A stretch of 64,000 nt of DNA, taken from Candidatus Saccharimonadota bacterium (GTDB taxonomy: Bacteria; Patescibacteriota; Saccharimonadia; Saccharimonadales; UBA4665). The DNA is taken from contig PLYP01000006.1 of NCBI GenBank assembly GCA_003153395.1, positions 1 to 64,000 on the forward strand, given 5' to 3'. A program made the position numbers and the translations under genes. Below are positions 1-5,751 of the stretch, one piece after another; positions within the stretch are counted from its first letter, which is position 1, and each line of letters begins with the position of its first letter. Below the pieces are notes generated by a model. That model was not told the origin of the DNA. It did no database searches and saw nothing but the letters and a program-made list of their open reading frames with translations.

Positions 1-95
1 ATTTGCGTAAAAATCACATTATTATTATGCTTGCCTTATTTGCTCTCCCTAAACTAAAATATATGTAATAGCTACTCGGGGAAGAGGTTAAAGTA

Positions 96-809
96 ATGGC
101 AGTTTATAGTAACAAACAGATAAGACAGGCAATAGACGAAGGACATATCCTTTGTCATCCGTTTGAGCCGAAGCATGTTTCTCACGCTAGTCTAGATGTT
201 ACTCTCGGTTATTACTATTACCGAATAGAGCGAATGAACGAGAGAACTATATACAACCCGTTCGACCAGGAAGACGTAGAAAGATACTTTGATGGGCCAT
301 ATAAGGCCATGAAACACGGCGAATGGTGTAGACTGAACGGTTTTGAGCCAGTTAACAATATCCCGCTTGATCATCCAGTAATAAGTCTTAAGCCGCGTGA
401 ACGAATACTGGCACACACCCATGAGTTTTTTGGTATTAAACCACCTGGTGCTTACGAAGTTAAATCCCGCTCTAGCTGGGGCAGAAACGGCGTTGCTGTT
501 TGTTTTGACGCCGGCTGGGTAGATCCCGGGTATATTAACCGGCTGACACTCGAAATATATAACCTGAATGAACGCGAAACCGTGCTTTTGCCTGTTGGCG
601 AGCGCATTGCTCAGGCCATTTTCTTGGAAACCGGTGAAGTGGAAGGTAGCTATGGGACTGGCCGAAATGACGGATTTAGCGGCAAATACCAGACCGGAGA
701 TGATATAGAAACTATAATTAAAACTTGGTCGCCAGATATGATGCTACCTAAAGCTTACCGTGACACCAGAGAGATGCCAAAGAAAATTGAGGGTATGGCA
801 TATGAATAG
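96..809 (+). CDS. dcd: dCTP deaminase-like (Dcd/dUTPase superfamily)
   Basis: Converts dCTP to dUTP (and in bifunctional members on to dUMP), supplying the precursor for dTMP. The 237-residue protein has the family signature: SRSSWGRNG at about residues 124-132 (the RSS..R.G nucleotide-binding motif), then DPGY with LTLEIYN at about 143-156, where the Glu of TLE matches the catalytic Glu of Dcd, and a C-terminal GTGRNDGFSGKYQ stretch like the mobile lid. It is somewhat longer than E. coli Dcd. A purine-rich GAAGAGG lies about 8 bases before the ATG. Its 3' end overlaps the start of the thymidylate kinase/ThyX gene by 8 bases, so the two are probably translationally coupled. Mono- versus bifunctional activity cannot be told from sequence. 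Confidence 0.85.
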   Translation: MAVYSNKQIRQAIDEGHILCHPFEPKHVSHASLDVTLGYYYYRIERMNERTIYNPFDQEDVERYFDGPYKAMKHGEWCRLNGFEPVNNIPLDHPVISLKPRERILAHTHEFFGIKPPGAYEVKSRSSWGRNGVAVCFDAGWVDPGYINRLTLEIYNLNERETVLLPVGERIAQAIFLETGEVEGSYGTGRNDGFSGKYQTGDDIETIIKTWSPDMMLPKAYRDTREMPKKIEGMAYE

Positions 810-3117
810 AGGCAAATATATTGTTGTTGAAGGTCCTGAAGGAGTAGGAAAAACTACTCAGCTTCAAGAACTTACGAGGCGCATGCAGGCTGCAGGATTA
901 CCAGTCAGATGTTTAAGAGAGCCAGATAGTCAAAGCGACCTTACGGCGCGAGCGATTCGTCAGTTAACCCAAGATCCGCGTTATCCAATGAATACCAGGA
1001 CTGAAGTACTCTTATATAACGCGGCGCGCTCTCAGAGTTTAGAAATAATAAAACAAAGCGTTGAGCACGGGGTAACATGCCTAGTAGATCGTAACTACCT
1101 AACTACTTTAGCTATTCAATATTACGGTCGCGGCGATGTTCCTGACTACAACACTATAAATAACATTATTAGCTTTGCTGTCGACGGATTTGAGCCTGAT
1201 CTGTGCATCGTTTTAGATGCCCCTGTAAACATTTTAAAGTCCAGGCTGCAGAAAAGAAAAAGCGGCGAGCGATTCGATAACTTAGATGAAGCATTTTTAG
1301 AAAGAGTTAGGGCCGGATATTTGTGGGAAGCCAAACAAAGAAAACTTCCGGTAGTGTTTGCAACAAGCGCACAAAACGAAGTTGCTGATCAAATATGGAA
1401 GCTAGTTTCCGGCGAACTAGCAATTAGAAGTAAAGCCGAACCGTCACCAGTTGAACCCCCCGTATCAGTCAAGCAAGTAATTGAGCAGAAACAACTAGGT
1501 GCTAAAGAAGCTAAGCCTGACAATACTAATATTGACTACGTTAAAAAAACAGAAGACGGCAAATTTGAGATAACTGAAGCCGGCAAAGAATATTTAAATG
1601 AAACAGTTACTGACAGCGAAGGTAATGTTTATAGTTTTAAAGATAAATTAAGCCCTGTAACCATTGCTGCAGCAATGGCTAGGCTTAGTCGCCGCGGCGA
1701 CGATATGCGGATAACCCTTTTAGATGAATTCGCCGGCAAAATAGATAAGGATGCACAGCTACTTCAAAGAGTTATTACGGCTTACGGAGACGACTCTGTT
1801 CAGCAACTAGGCGGAATACATGTAGTAGTTGAGAACGCTTCCAACTTGCTTACTAAAAAACTGGAGTGGGGAAGATTAGCAGCCTATCTAGAACAATCCA
1901 CGCGCTATATATATTTTGATCACACTGACAGCGAAGGAAAATATAAGTACTACACACCTGCGCATTTCAAGGGAGCTATTAAAAAGCAGTATGAGCAGGA
2001 TTTAGATAATATATTTGAAATATATTCTGATATGGTAAGAGCCCTCACAGATTATGTGCGCAAAAACTCAGATACACCTGAGAAAGATAGAGACATAGCC
2101 TGGAAGGGCGCAACCAGAGCTCAAGCTTGTGATGCTGCCCGAGCTGTGCTACCGGTTGCTACTAAATCTACCGTTGGCATATTTGGTTCCGGGCAAGCTA
2201 TAGAAAGTTTAATCATGCACCTCATGAGCGATGAGCTTCCTGAAGCCATAGAGACCGGACAAGCTCTTCTAGATCAAGCCCGTAAAATTATTCCAATGTA
2301 CTTGGAACGAGCGGATAAACCAGAACGAGGCGGAGCAATGATTGCTTACAGGGCAAATACATTTAAGGCTGTTAAAGATCTGGCTAAAAAGAATTTGCCG
2401 GATAATCACTCGTCAAGAACAGATACTTCGGCGACCCTCATAGATTATTGGCCAAAGAACGAGATGCTTCTTGTTCCGGATATGCTTTATGAGCACAGCA
2501 GCCTGTCACTCGATGAGCTGCAAACTACGGTAAGTTCCTGGCCATATGACAAAAAGATGGAAGTCTTTAAAGCATATATGGGCGAGCGGTTAAACCGACG
2601 TCACAAACCAGGAAGGGCCTTAGAAAAAGCTCATTATAGCTGGGACATAATTTGTGATTACGGCATATTTAGGGATTTGCAGCGACATAGAATGGTTGAC
2701 GACATGAACTGGCAGCAACTTACCCCTAGATATGGCTACGAAATACCATCACTAATTGAAGAAGCCGGCTTAAGCGAAGAATTTGAAAGCTGTTTTGAAA
2801 TAAGCCTAAAGCTTTACAGCTTACTCCAAGAGAATGGCTATAATATAGAAGCTCAATATGCAACTCTCTTAGGCCATAAAATGCGCTGGAAGGTGACATA
2901 TAACGCCCGTGAAGCATTTCATTTGCATGAGCTAAGAACATCACCGCAAGGACATCCTGGATACAGAAAGCTGGTACTAGAAATGCATGAAAAATTATCT
3001 GAAGTGCATCCTCAACTGGCTGAAGCCATGAAATTCGTTAATCAAGACGAAGATCCCAAGCTGACTAGGCTAGCAGCAGAACGCTACACTCAGTTTAAGC
3101 TAAACCAACTAGGATAA
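802..3117 (+). CDS. Thymidylate kinase fused to a double ThyX-like region
   Basis: A 771-residue predicted fusion. Residues 1-205 are a dTMP kinase with P-loop GPEGVGKT (11-18), a DRN motif near residue 95 and a lid-like RLQKRKSGERFD. After a polar linker come two ThyX-like segments. The first (about 265-500) holds YLEQSTRYIYFD near 362-373 but no RHR. The second (about 500-771) has RHR at 628-630 followed by NWQQLTPRY, then NAREAFHLHELR, matching the flavin/dUMP signature of FAD-dependent thymidylate synthase. One polypeptide could therefore make dTMP and phosphorylate it. The start at 802 is chosen because MNRGKYIVVEG is the usual Tmk N-terminus; a start at 760 would add 14 residues and overlap dcd further. 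Domain calls are by motif; activity of the first ThyX half is uncertain. Confidence 0.82.
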   Translation: MNRGKYIVVEGPEGVGKTTQLQELTRRMQAAGLPVRCLREPDSQSDLTARAIRQLTQDPRYPMNTRTEVLLYNAARSQSLEIIKQSVEHGVTCLVDRNYLTTLAIQYYGRGDVPDYNTINNIISFAVDGFEPDLCIVLDAPVNILKSRLQKRKSGERFDNLDEAFLERVRAGYLWEAKQRKLPVVFATSAQNEVADQIWKLVSGELAIRSKAEPSPVEPPVSVKQVIEQKQLGAKEAKPDNTNIDYVKKTEDGKFEITEAGKEYLNETVTDSEGNVYSFKDKLSPVTIAAAMARLSRRGDDMRITLLDEFAGKIDKDAQLLQRVITAYGDDSVQQLGGIHVVVENASNLLTKKLEWGRLAAYLEQSTRYIYFDHTDSEGKYKYYTPAHFKGAIKKQYEQDLDNIFEIYSDMVRALTDYVRKNSDTPEKDRDIAWKGATRAQACDAARAVLPVATKSTVGIFGSGQAIESLIMHLMSDELPEAIETGQALLDQARKIIPMYLERADKPERGGAMIAYRANTFKAVKDLAKKNLPDNHSSRTDTSATLIDYWPKNEMLLVPDMLYEHSSLSLDELQTTVSSWPYDKKMEVFKAYMGERLNRRHKPGRALEKAHYSWDIICDYGIFRDLQRHRMVDDMNWQQLTPRYGYEIPSLIEEAGLSEEFESCFEISLKLYSLLQENGYNIEAQYATLLGHKMRWKVTYNAREAFHLHELRTSPQGHPGYRKLVLEMHEKLSEVHPQLAEAMKFVNQDEDPKLTRLAAERYTQFKLNQLG

Positions 3118-3122
3118 TATTT

Positions 3123-3866
3123 TTACATTAAGTTTGCGTAGTTTGTGTGCAGATTGCCAGAAACTGATAGTCCAAAAGATGTTGCGTTTGTAAGTAGGGC
3201 TAAAGCAGCGCCTTCTGGGCGAGAAAAGTGCCCTTCATGAGTTAACATGTGCCTAGGTTCGCCGGCACCAATAGCTAAAAAGCCAAGGCCTTCTAGAATA
3301 GGGGGCCTGTCTTGTCCTCTCCGGCTATGGTTTTGCATATCAAATTGTTGTTTAATTAAATCTGCTACACGAATCTTAATATCTGGAGTTCCCTCAACTC
3401 GTTCTTCAGTAGAGATTGCGTCATAGTCCACGCCTTGAAACATAACAACTACTATCGTTCTATCTTCTGGGCGCCTAATTTGACTAATTGCAGCGTGAGT
3501 AACCTGAGCATCAACTTCGTCCAATGGTTCTCCATGTATATGACCGGATGCTTCTAGCTTTAAAACTGCGCCGCCTACTTCTTCCACTACTCCTACGAAT
3601 CTATCAATAAAAGGATCTATTTGGATACGTCCTTCGTCAATCCCAATCACTGCGGTAGTTCCAAATCGGGCAATATTATCTAAAACTGTTCTCTCGTCCA
3701 TCTCAAATGGCCTATGCTTGCCATCTTCAACCGGTTTTCTCTGCATTATTCTACGAGAACCTGTCGCAGAAGGAGGAGTATCTCCCGAGAGTATACGTAA
3801 ATCCGCATTATTAAATGGAGTACCTAGAGATTGTTCACCTTGTATCCTGCTTGATCTTTTAGACAT
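3123..3866 (-). CDS. Hypothetical protein, 247 aa
   Basis: I do not recognise this family. The protein is soluble, with no signal peptide or membrane segment. Its N-terminal 50 residues are polar and probably disordered (SKRSSRIQGEQ start, serine/arginine-rich); the rest alternates hydrophobic beta-like strands (TAVIGIDEGRIQID, TIVVVMFQGVDYD) with charged loops and ends in a Gly/Ser/Asn-rich tail. It is convergent with the thymidylate gene (5 bases between stops). A terminator-like hairpin lies 26 bases upstream of its start, in its own leader. Confidence 0.6.
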   Translation of the reverse strand: MSKRSSRIQGEQSLGTPFNNADLRILSGDTPPSATGSRRIMQRKPVEDGKHRPFEMDERTVLDNIARFGTTAVIGIDEGRIQIDPFIDRFVGVVEEVGGAVLKLEASGHIHGEPLDEVDAQVTHAAISQIRRPEDRTIVVVMFQGVDYDAISTEERVEGTPDIKIRVADLIKQQFDMQNHSRRGQDRPPILEGLGFLAIGAGEPRHMLTHEGHFSRPEGAALALLTNATSFGLSVSGNLHTNYANLM

Positions 3867-5295: not shown

Positions 5296-5751
5296 ATGCA
5301 GCAAAACCACTCTCAGCCCTCAGGACCTGTAGAAGCAGGTATTAGGCCATATGATATTCGCGATGAACCCCGAAGTTTTTTCGAAGATGGTTCAGCCGCG
5401 CAAATCGCCGGAGAACTTGCGCTGAGAGCAATTGATCAACGTAAAGCAATTATAGAGAAGCTAAAATTACCTACAGTAAGTATTGTTTATTCTAATGAAG
5501 GTCCTCCGACTTATGTTTATAAAAAACACCAAGACACACCGGCTGAAGATAGTGCAGAACAAAAGACGCGTTCTCAGCTGCAAACGAGTAAGCTTCTAAG
5601 AAGCTCCAGGATTTATATGTTAGAGGCGATCCTTGCCTCTCCTGAAACACCATTGATGAAACTATTCGGCCCGAGACACGTACTAGGTAGTTTGCGAGCG
5701 GCACAGAATGTGTTACAATTACGCCAAGTTGCCAGAGACAGCGACGGGTAA
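5296..5751 (+). CDS. Hypothetical protein, 151 aa
   Basis: No recognised family. The polar, Pro-rich N-terminus (about 1-30) is followed by a helical region (AAQIAGELALRAIDQRKAIIEKL) and a second helical block near the C-terminus; there is no membrane segment. A TATATT box lies 12 bases before the ATG and no Shine-Dalgarno is visible. It stands alone between the M20 peptidase and the rplJ-rplL operon and is followed by an intrinsic terminator. Confidence 0.55.
   Translation: MQQNHSQPSGPVEAGIRPYDIRDEPRSFFEDGSAAQIAGELALRAIDQRKAIIEKLKLPTVSIVYSNEGPPTYVYKKHQDTPAEDSAEQKTRSQLQTSKLLRSSRIYMLEAILASPETPLMKLFGPRHVLGSLRAAQNVLQLRQVARDSDG

Follow-up and report, generated by a model that had tools for sequence, protein, structure and literature searches.

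Thymidylate synthase and deoxythymidine monophosphate (dTMP) kinase act in consecutive steps in nearly every cell, and the locus described here raises the question of whether a single gene of a Candidatus Saccharimonadota bacterium encodes both. The gene lies at positions 802-3117 of a 64,000-nucleotide stretch of DNA, hereafter the window (GenBank assembly GCA_003153395.1, contig PLYP01000006.1, positions 1 to 64,000), and a preliminary description made from the letters of the window had read it as a dTMP kinase followed by two halves resembling ThyX, the flavin-dependent thymidylate synthase. We put the probability at about 0.8 that the gene encodes a bifunctional thymidylate synthase-kinase, which would convert deoxyuridine monophosphate (dUMP) to dTMP and then to deoxythymidine diphosphate (dTDP) and in which the ThyX module would be a pseudo-heterodimer of two halves, A and B. 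The fusion itself is real and lineage-wide in the Saccharimonadia, a group of tiny symbiotic bacteria. Both superfamilies are known; what sets the gene apart is their combination, the probably divided ThyX site, and the exchange of kinases, and the fusion of a kinase with a double ThyX is undescribed in the titles and abstracts of the open-access literature searched.

On the forward strand, the gene is a single open frame of 771 codons with no internal stop, starting at an ATG at 802 with GAGGG 8 bases 5' of it (an in-frame GTG at 760 is an alternative start), and relatives sharing 37-78% identity keep the frame over its whole length. Its parts are the following.

802..3117, forward strand: fusion gene, dTMP kinase - ThyX half A - ThyX half B, 771 aa (open frame, Pfam, NCBIfam, full-length relatives)
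802..1422, forward strand: thymidylate kinase domain, residues 1-207 (TIGR00041 above cut-off; predicted fold similar to 5xbh)
832..855, forward strand: P-loop GPEGVGKT, residues 11-18 (motif search; GxxxxGK in 73/73 fused proteins counted)
1087..1101, forward strand: DRNYL motif of the kinase, residues 96-100 (motif search; DR at residues 96-97)
1423..1548, forward strand: low-confidence linker, residues 208-249 (predicted local distance difference test, pLDDT, below 50 at segments 211-220 and 234-240)
1549..2316, forward strand: ThyX half A, residues 250-505, keeping E-x-S-x-R-Y, without RHR (Thy1 55.3 bits; aligned to M. tuberculosis ThyX 3gwc)
1864..1908, forward strand: catalytic loop of half A, EWGRLAAYLEQSTRY, residues 355-369 (Ser366, Arg368, and Tyr369 in 120/120)
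2317..3114, forward strand: ThyX half B, residues 506-771, keeping RHR and NAR...ELR (Thy1 64.1 bits; aligned to solved ThyX chains)
2683..2691, forward strand: RHR of half B, residues 628-630 (Arg628 in 119/120, His629 in 117/120, Arg630 in 118/120)
2902..2937, forward strand: NAREAFHLHELR of half B, residues 701-712 (Asn701, Arg703, and Arg712 in 117/120, the other three being gaps)

The N-terminal domain has the common fold, the P-loop, and the DR motif of bacterial dTMP kinase (Tmk; TIGR00041/PF02223), scoring 106.8 against a curated cut-off of 83.25 for the NCBIfam dTMP kinase equivalog TIGR00041 and 92.6 bits against a cut-off of 27 for Pfam Thymidylate_kin at residues 9-198. The predicted fold of model residues 5-207 matches the thymidylate kinase 5xbh with a Z score of 24.1 and a root-mean-square deviation of 1.8 over 192 aligned residues. 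We take DRNYL to be the DRx motif of this family; DR is kept in 38 of the 39 fused kinases of the window's type (k1), the last one having DG, and a fused protein that has lost GxxxxGK (L033) lies outside the count of 73. The domain differs from bacterial Tmk in being the N-terminal part of a larger protein, and the genome additionally has a free-standing tmk from a different lineage. Among the 60 relatives, the kinase of the fusion gene is the sole PF02223 match in 30, of which 18 are at least 95% complete (the 30 include G037, whose match falls below the PF02223 cut-off; the ThyX parts are decayed in G004 and G037), so there the fused kinase is probably the dTMP kinase.

The remainder of the protein matches Pfam Thy1 (PF02511) in two stretches, at 118.9 bits against a cut-off of 24.8, which together with the open frame and the kinase matches bears out the reading of one gene with a dTMP kinase and two ThyX-like halves. 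The motifs that this reading had invoked were located as well, QSTRY without RHR in half A at residues 354-372 and RHR with NWQQLTPRY in half B at residues 623-646. Canonical ThyX carries a regularly spaced RHR...S-x-R-Y motif; neither half has this one-domain motif together with the catalytic Arg, since half A is without RHR and the loop of half B has insertions and Thr in place of Ser. Residues were counted in 120 double ThyX proteins, 80 from Saccharimonadia or near relatives, 25 from Actinobacteria, and 15 from other Patescibacteria. In half A, Arg447 is invariant along with the Ser, Arg, and Tyr of the loop, and Glu364 is kept in 118; the position of the first RHR Arg holds Arg in only 3, and in 105 a Gln replaces the Arg of NAR. 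Arg712 of half B, in an ELRTS aligned to the solved chains, corresponds to the dUMP-activating Arg174 of T. maritima ThyX. If a one-residue gap is allowed, Arg174 can alternatively be placed at position 473 of half A, which is His in 54 and Arg in 18 of the 80 Saccharimonadia and Arg in all 25 Actinobacteria; for the latter, we therefore do not claim that half A is without the activating Arg. Two Thy1 stretches and this split of residues place the protein among the double ThyX proteins, of which an actinobacterial one (L112) also shows two stretches.

How might two such halves work? Passages of one report on ThyX place the active site between monomers, one monomer contributing Ser88 and Gln89 and another Gln75 and the conserved Arg182 (PMC3498832), and passages of a second describe Arg174 as activating dUMP with the assistance of Ser88 and Tyr91 (PMC8316439). 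Set against these passages, the kept residues would make the site formed by the loop of half A and the RHR and Arg of half B complete, and the residue split fits an A/B composite active site; as judged from the alignment, the reciprocal site is without the first RHR Arg and, in Saccharimonadia, without the conserved activating Arg. The two unequal synthase halves thus probably share one active site. The preliminary description had raised the possibility that dUMP and flavin adenine dinucleotide (FAD) binding had been divided between the halves: catalytic residues are indeed divided in the 120 sequences, but a simple split of dUMP against FAD does not hold, because the published passages, with the Ser/Arg/Tyr loop coming from A and RHR and the dUMP-activating Arg from B, imply that both halves would touch dUMP. 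The fold prediction suggested at that time gave a partial answer. The full-length model has a mean pLDDT of 85.7, helices and strands follow one another similarly in the two ThyX halves, and its two best viral structural matches are proteins of 461 and 491 residues, that is, of double-ThyX length, the second being named thymidylate synthase of Microcystis phage LMM01; the search against PDB was neutral. The ThyX part folded alone and alignment-free reached a pLDDT of 45.7, and this model was discarded for searches.

We propose that the A/B pair would fold as a pseudo-heterodimeric ThyX and that two chains would assemble into an A2B2 variant of the ThyX homotetramer, in which each working site would combine the Glu/Ser/Arg/Tyr loop of A with the RHR and dUMP-activating Arg of B, giving two working sites per particle as compared with the usual four. 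The ThyX part would convert dUMP to dTMP using FAD, methylenetetrahydrofolate, and reduced nicotinamide adenine dinucleotide phosphate (NADPH), the N-terminal kinase would convert dTMP to dTDP with ATP, and Dcd of the same operon would supply deoxyuridine triphosphate (dUTP) or dUMP. We infer the quaternary arrangement, the activity of both modules, and any benefit of coupling, be it local dTMP transfer or fixed stoichiometry. Substrate channeling, called possible in the preliminary description, is likewise conjecture.

The link to dcd, a putative deoxycytidine triphosphate (dCTP) deaminase gene, rests on the following neighbor.

96..809, forward strand: dcd, dCTP deaminase-like, 237 aa (PF22769 112 bits; TIGR02274 90.2 bits)

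Its product scores well above the PF22769 cut-off of 27 and just below the cut-off of 92.8 for the dCTP deaminase TIGR02274, and on these matches we call it dCTP deaminase-like. The two genes overlap at 802-809, the 8 bases originally reported, and the coupling is widespread: dcd lies 60 bp or less upstream in 61 of the 71 fused loci with room for it and overlaps the fusion gene in 49. The genome of the window, labeled 100% complete, has no match to ThyA, no other ThyX beyond the fusion gene, and no other dcd. No separate dUTPase scores above cut-off, so Dcd may be bifunctional; a strong dihydrofolate reductase (DHFR) match is present (G000:C11:28744-29214) despite the lack of ThyA. The claim that one operon holds the steps from dCTP to dUTP and from dUMP through dTMP to dTDP is therefore supported in its coupling to dcd, but the step from dUTP to dUMP is not covered. 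As for separate tmk, thyX, or thyA genes, which the same description had named as bearing on its reading, a separate tmk is present and a separate ThyX or ThyA is not.

The fusion extends well beyond this genome. The protein finds a match in 56 of the 60 relatives, and, on reading the frames, kinase and ThyX parts share one frame in 46, including three cut by contig ends (G005, G020, and G025) and one decayed paralog (G006). Decayed fusions occur in three further relatives (G004, G028, and G037), and kinase and ThyX are neighboring genes in another three (G051, G054, and G059). A scan of named genomes confirmed 554 relatives, of which the best 80 were kept: among these, full-length matches were almost all titled Candidatus Saccharibacteria/Saccharimonadia or Patescibacteria, with one Parcubacteria (L101), and the kinase-less remainder was mostly titled Actinobacteria/Acidimicrobiia, a scope that leaves room for the fusion in other groups. 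The alignment matches 270 of 380 Patescibacteria genomes, many through the kinase alone; among the matches listed, stop-free full-length frames occur only in the window's order, and outside it a double ThyX stands alone or adjoins a kinase gene. At 7 of the 15 double-ThyX loci of other families (L187-L201), and also at L181 and L182, a kinase lies within 400 bases on the same strand. One of these (L181, genome G213) was considered as a fusion outside the order and rejected: the only stop in its frame is a TGA separating the kinase from ThyX, which we read as a true stop, so that the genes are adjacent and unfused. Among phages, 90 records match the three-part protein, none covering 80% of the query, so the three-part fusion was not found among them.

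Compared with ThyX as known from the solved T. maritima, M. tuberculosis, and PBCV-1 enzymes (PF02511), the protein belongs to the same Thy1 family and has the key site residues, but over two halves; it differs from them in having two unequal domains per chain, a half A without RHR, a half B with a longer altered loop, and a fused kinase. Unfused double ThyX proteins of about 540 aa, found in Acidimicrobiia, other Actinobacteria, other Patescibacteria, and phages (one, L147, lies in a viral contig), show the same A/B arrangement and residue split, at 38-45% identity per half for the non-patescibacterial rows, but lack an in-frame kinase, which in other Patescibacteria is often a neighboring gene. 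Double ThyX is older than the kinase fusion. Chlamydia ThyX is also long, at about 530 aa, and possibly of double length; to our knowledge, no kinase fusion is known for it.

Beneath the ThyX module, the kinase varies. Besides k1, which is TIGR00041-like, fused kinases include a second subfamily, k2, which fits NF005923 best although below the cut-off of that family, and three weaker k1-like kinases may make up another. The kinase tree sets k1 well apart from k2 and puts the separate tmk of the window's genome in a third lineage, so it is not a recent copy of the fused kinase. On the ThyX tree, the fused proteins form one clade (64 rows; Shimodaira-Hasegawa-like approximate likelihood ratio test support of 96), from which only the decayed L023 is excluded, on a very long branch; with 47 rows, the clade is supported at 93/93. 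Kinase types are scattered within this clade and require at least six changes (5-95% range of 6-9 for k1). If the fusion arose once, at least one kinase exchange under a standing ThyX is required and several are likely; the trees suggest that the kinases of fused genes were probably exchanged more than once.

The fate of the ThyX halves appears to be tied to ThyA. Strong ThyA matches occur in 7 of the 60 relatives (G004, G007, G010, G028, G032, G037, and G046); an eighth candidate, G049, is a weak match in a 210-residue frame. In six of the seven, thyA lies about 8 kb or less from the fusion gene, and a reductase gene of the DHFR family or of a similar kind is close by; in G010 this gene matches both RibD_C and DHFR. 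As an observation in its own right, a set of thyA and a DHFR/RibD_C-like reductase near the fusion gene recurs at L202, L203, L204, L205, L206, L207, and L033. The fusion is lost in G046; G004 and G028 lack most of half A along with RHR and NAR; all motifs, the P-loop included, are lost in G037; the Tyr of half A and Arg712 of half B are changed and RHR is kept in G032; and both ThyA and the fusion are kept in G007 and G010. The kinase P-loop is intact in G004, G028, and G032. The sole other decayed fusion is that of G006, which also has an unfused double ThyX in intact form (L024). ThyX is lost or decayed in 5 of 7 genomes with strong ThyA versus 2 of 53 without it (G022 and G057; Fisher p of 7.6e-5, uncorrected for kinship), and 2 of 4 versus 1 of 42 among genomes at least 90% complete (p of 0.017, likewise uncorrected). 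Acquisition of thyA is mentioned for groundwater Patescibacteria in part of a published report (PMC12455944). With thyA close to the gene, catalytic residues tend to disappear from the ThyX halves and the kinase usually stays intact, a pattern that supports ThyX as the working synthase and a kinase with its own duty.

Several results weigh against a working synthase-kinase with a composite site. The protein scores 52.7 against a cut-off of 87.9 for the canonical ThyX equivalog TIGR02170 and so is not filed as canonical ThyX, although it probably works like one. Profile comparison of half A with half B found no similarity (hhalign probability of 4.5%, and 0.2% in global mode); both are recognizable as ThyX only via Pfam and the solved ThyX chains, and this mutual lack of recognition indicates that the duplication is not recent. 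The first 50 rows of the full-length structural search against PDB are all kinases, so that the search speaks neither for nor against a ThyX fold. The k2 fused kinases have NR instead of DR in all 26, out of 29, in which the motif search located the site, the other three being decayed proteins. Half B often keeps its own T-x-R-Y in Saccharimonadia (Arg643 in 67/80, Tyr644 in 63/80), and, with RHR and NAR...ELR in the same half, half B (or each half) might build a complete ThyX site with its own kind, leaving half A as a merely structural partner; however, the Ser, Arg, and Tyr of half A are invariant across all three groups, and the loop of half B is variable, Tyr644 being His in 25/25 actinobacterial rows and never Tyr in the 15 rows from other Patescibacteria, which makes this arrangement quite unlikely in our judgment. 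Finally, a separate tmk two genes upstream of dcd scores 117.2 bits, above the dTMP kinase cut-off, so the fused kinase is not the sole kinase in the window's genome. It could be that only ThyX works here and that the separate tmk makes dTDP, the fused kinase being tolerated or structural, as might be argued also from one relative (G053, L028) in which the fused kinase is without DR and two other kinase matches are present; yet the conservation of the P-loop and, in k1, of DR, the 30 relatives with no other PF02223 match, and the retention of a kinase whose subfamily varies between relatives make this slightly less probable again.

That the fusion is an artefact of assembly or frame deserves hardly any credence. 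It is true that the window begins at a contig end and that a second contig of the same genome (L007, contig C4), in opposite orientation, ends inside the fusion gene, but this contig is identical to window positions 1-2716 with no mismatch and carries the same open frame over positions 1-2716, the same fusion recurs in the 46 relatives, and dcd overlaps it at most fused loci (49/71). The second contig is the same locus and the source of the upstream neighbors; it agrees with the window, and with the open frame shared by relatives it leaves no sign of the stop or frameshift between the parts that the preliminary description had held up as the danger to its reading. The repeated exchange of kinases is less secure, because the scatter on the ThyX tree could reflect poor resolution after a single exchange: many inner branches are short, and approximately unbiased tests are borderline (p of 0.048 for a single k1 clade and of 0.10 for a single k2 clade). 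Against this, none of 200 bootstrap trees shows k1 or k2 as one clade, six changes are needed, and both kinase types occur within one taxonomic family; we regard a single exchange as unlikely, although it carries the most weight among the alternatives considered here.

Starting from the bifunctional synthase-kinase, a broader and more tentative reading, to which we would give slightly less than an even chance, is that the whole order uses such an enzyme with an obligate composite site, that dTMP kinases of other lineages have on several occasions taken over the position of the kinase, with the conserved dcd and ThyX flanks serving as anchors, and that the coupling itself is selected until thyA lands nearby and ThyX becomes a mere appendage of the kinase. 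Repeated kinase replacement would then mean that physical coupling of both steps is under selection.

Other features were noted around the locus and in the order. Upstream genes on the second contig comprise the separate tmk (212 aa), an LPG-synthase-like gene on the opposite strand, and ribosomal and nusG genes, the latter named from their sequences. The two contigs, overlapping by 2716 identical bases, are unjoined in the assembly, and gene searches count the locus twice. Downstream, a 247-aa frame at 3123-3866 on the reverse strand is convergent with the fusion gene, and a 151-aa frame at 5296-5751 on the forward strand directly precedes rplJ (named from sequence); neither has a Pfam match. 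One relative (G052, L208:4913-7853) carries dcd, a 307-aa frame that matches Thy1, and a 443-aa protein that has no Pfam match and bears a weak resemblance to the k2 kinase in one stretch. Within family f26 of the order, most of the genomes sampled match the double ThyX with scores no higher than the kinase range, if at all, and in three it is present unfused; a dependence on hosts for thymidylate is possible in this family.

Together, these data bear on how thymidylate is made in this lineage. The decaying ThyX near thyA shows enzyme replacement under way, and in the annotation of Saccharibacteria, "dTMP kinase" matches of about 770 aa are probably also thymidylate synthases. The double ThyX would be a naturally heteromeric form of an enzyme otherwise built as a homotetramer, its one site drawn from two specialized halves, and a stable natural fusion in which the origin of the kinase varies would suit testing the direct hand-over of dTMP.

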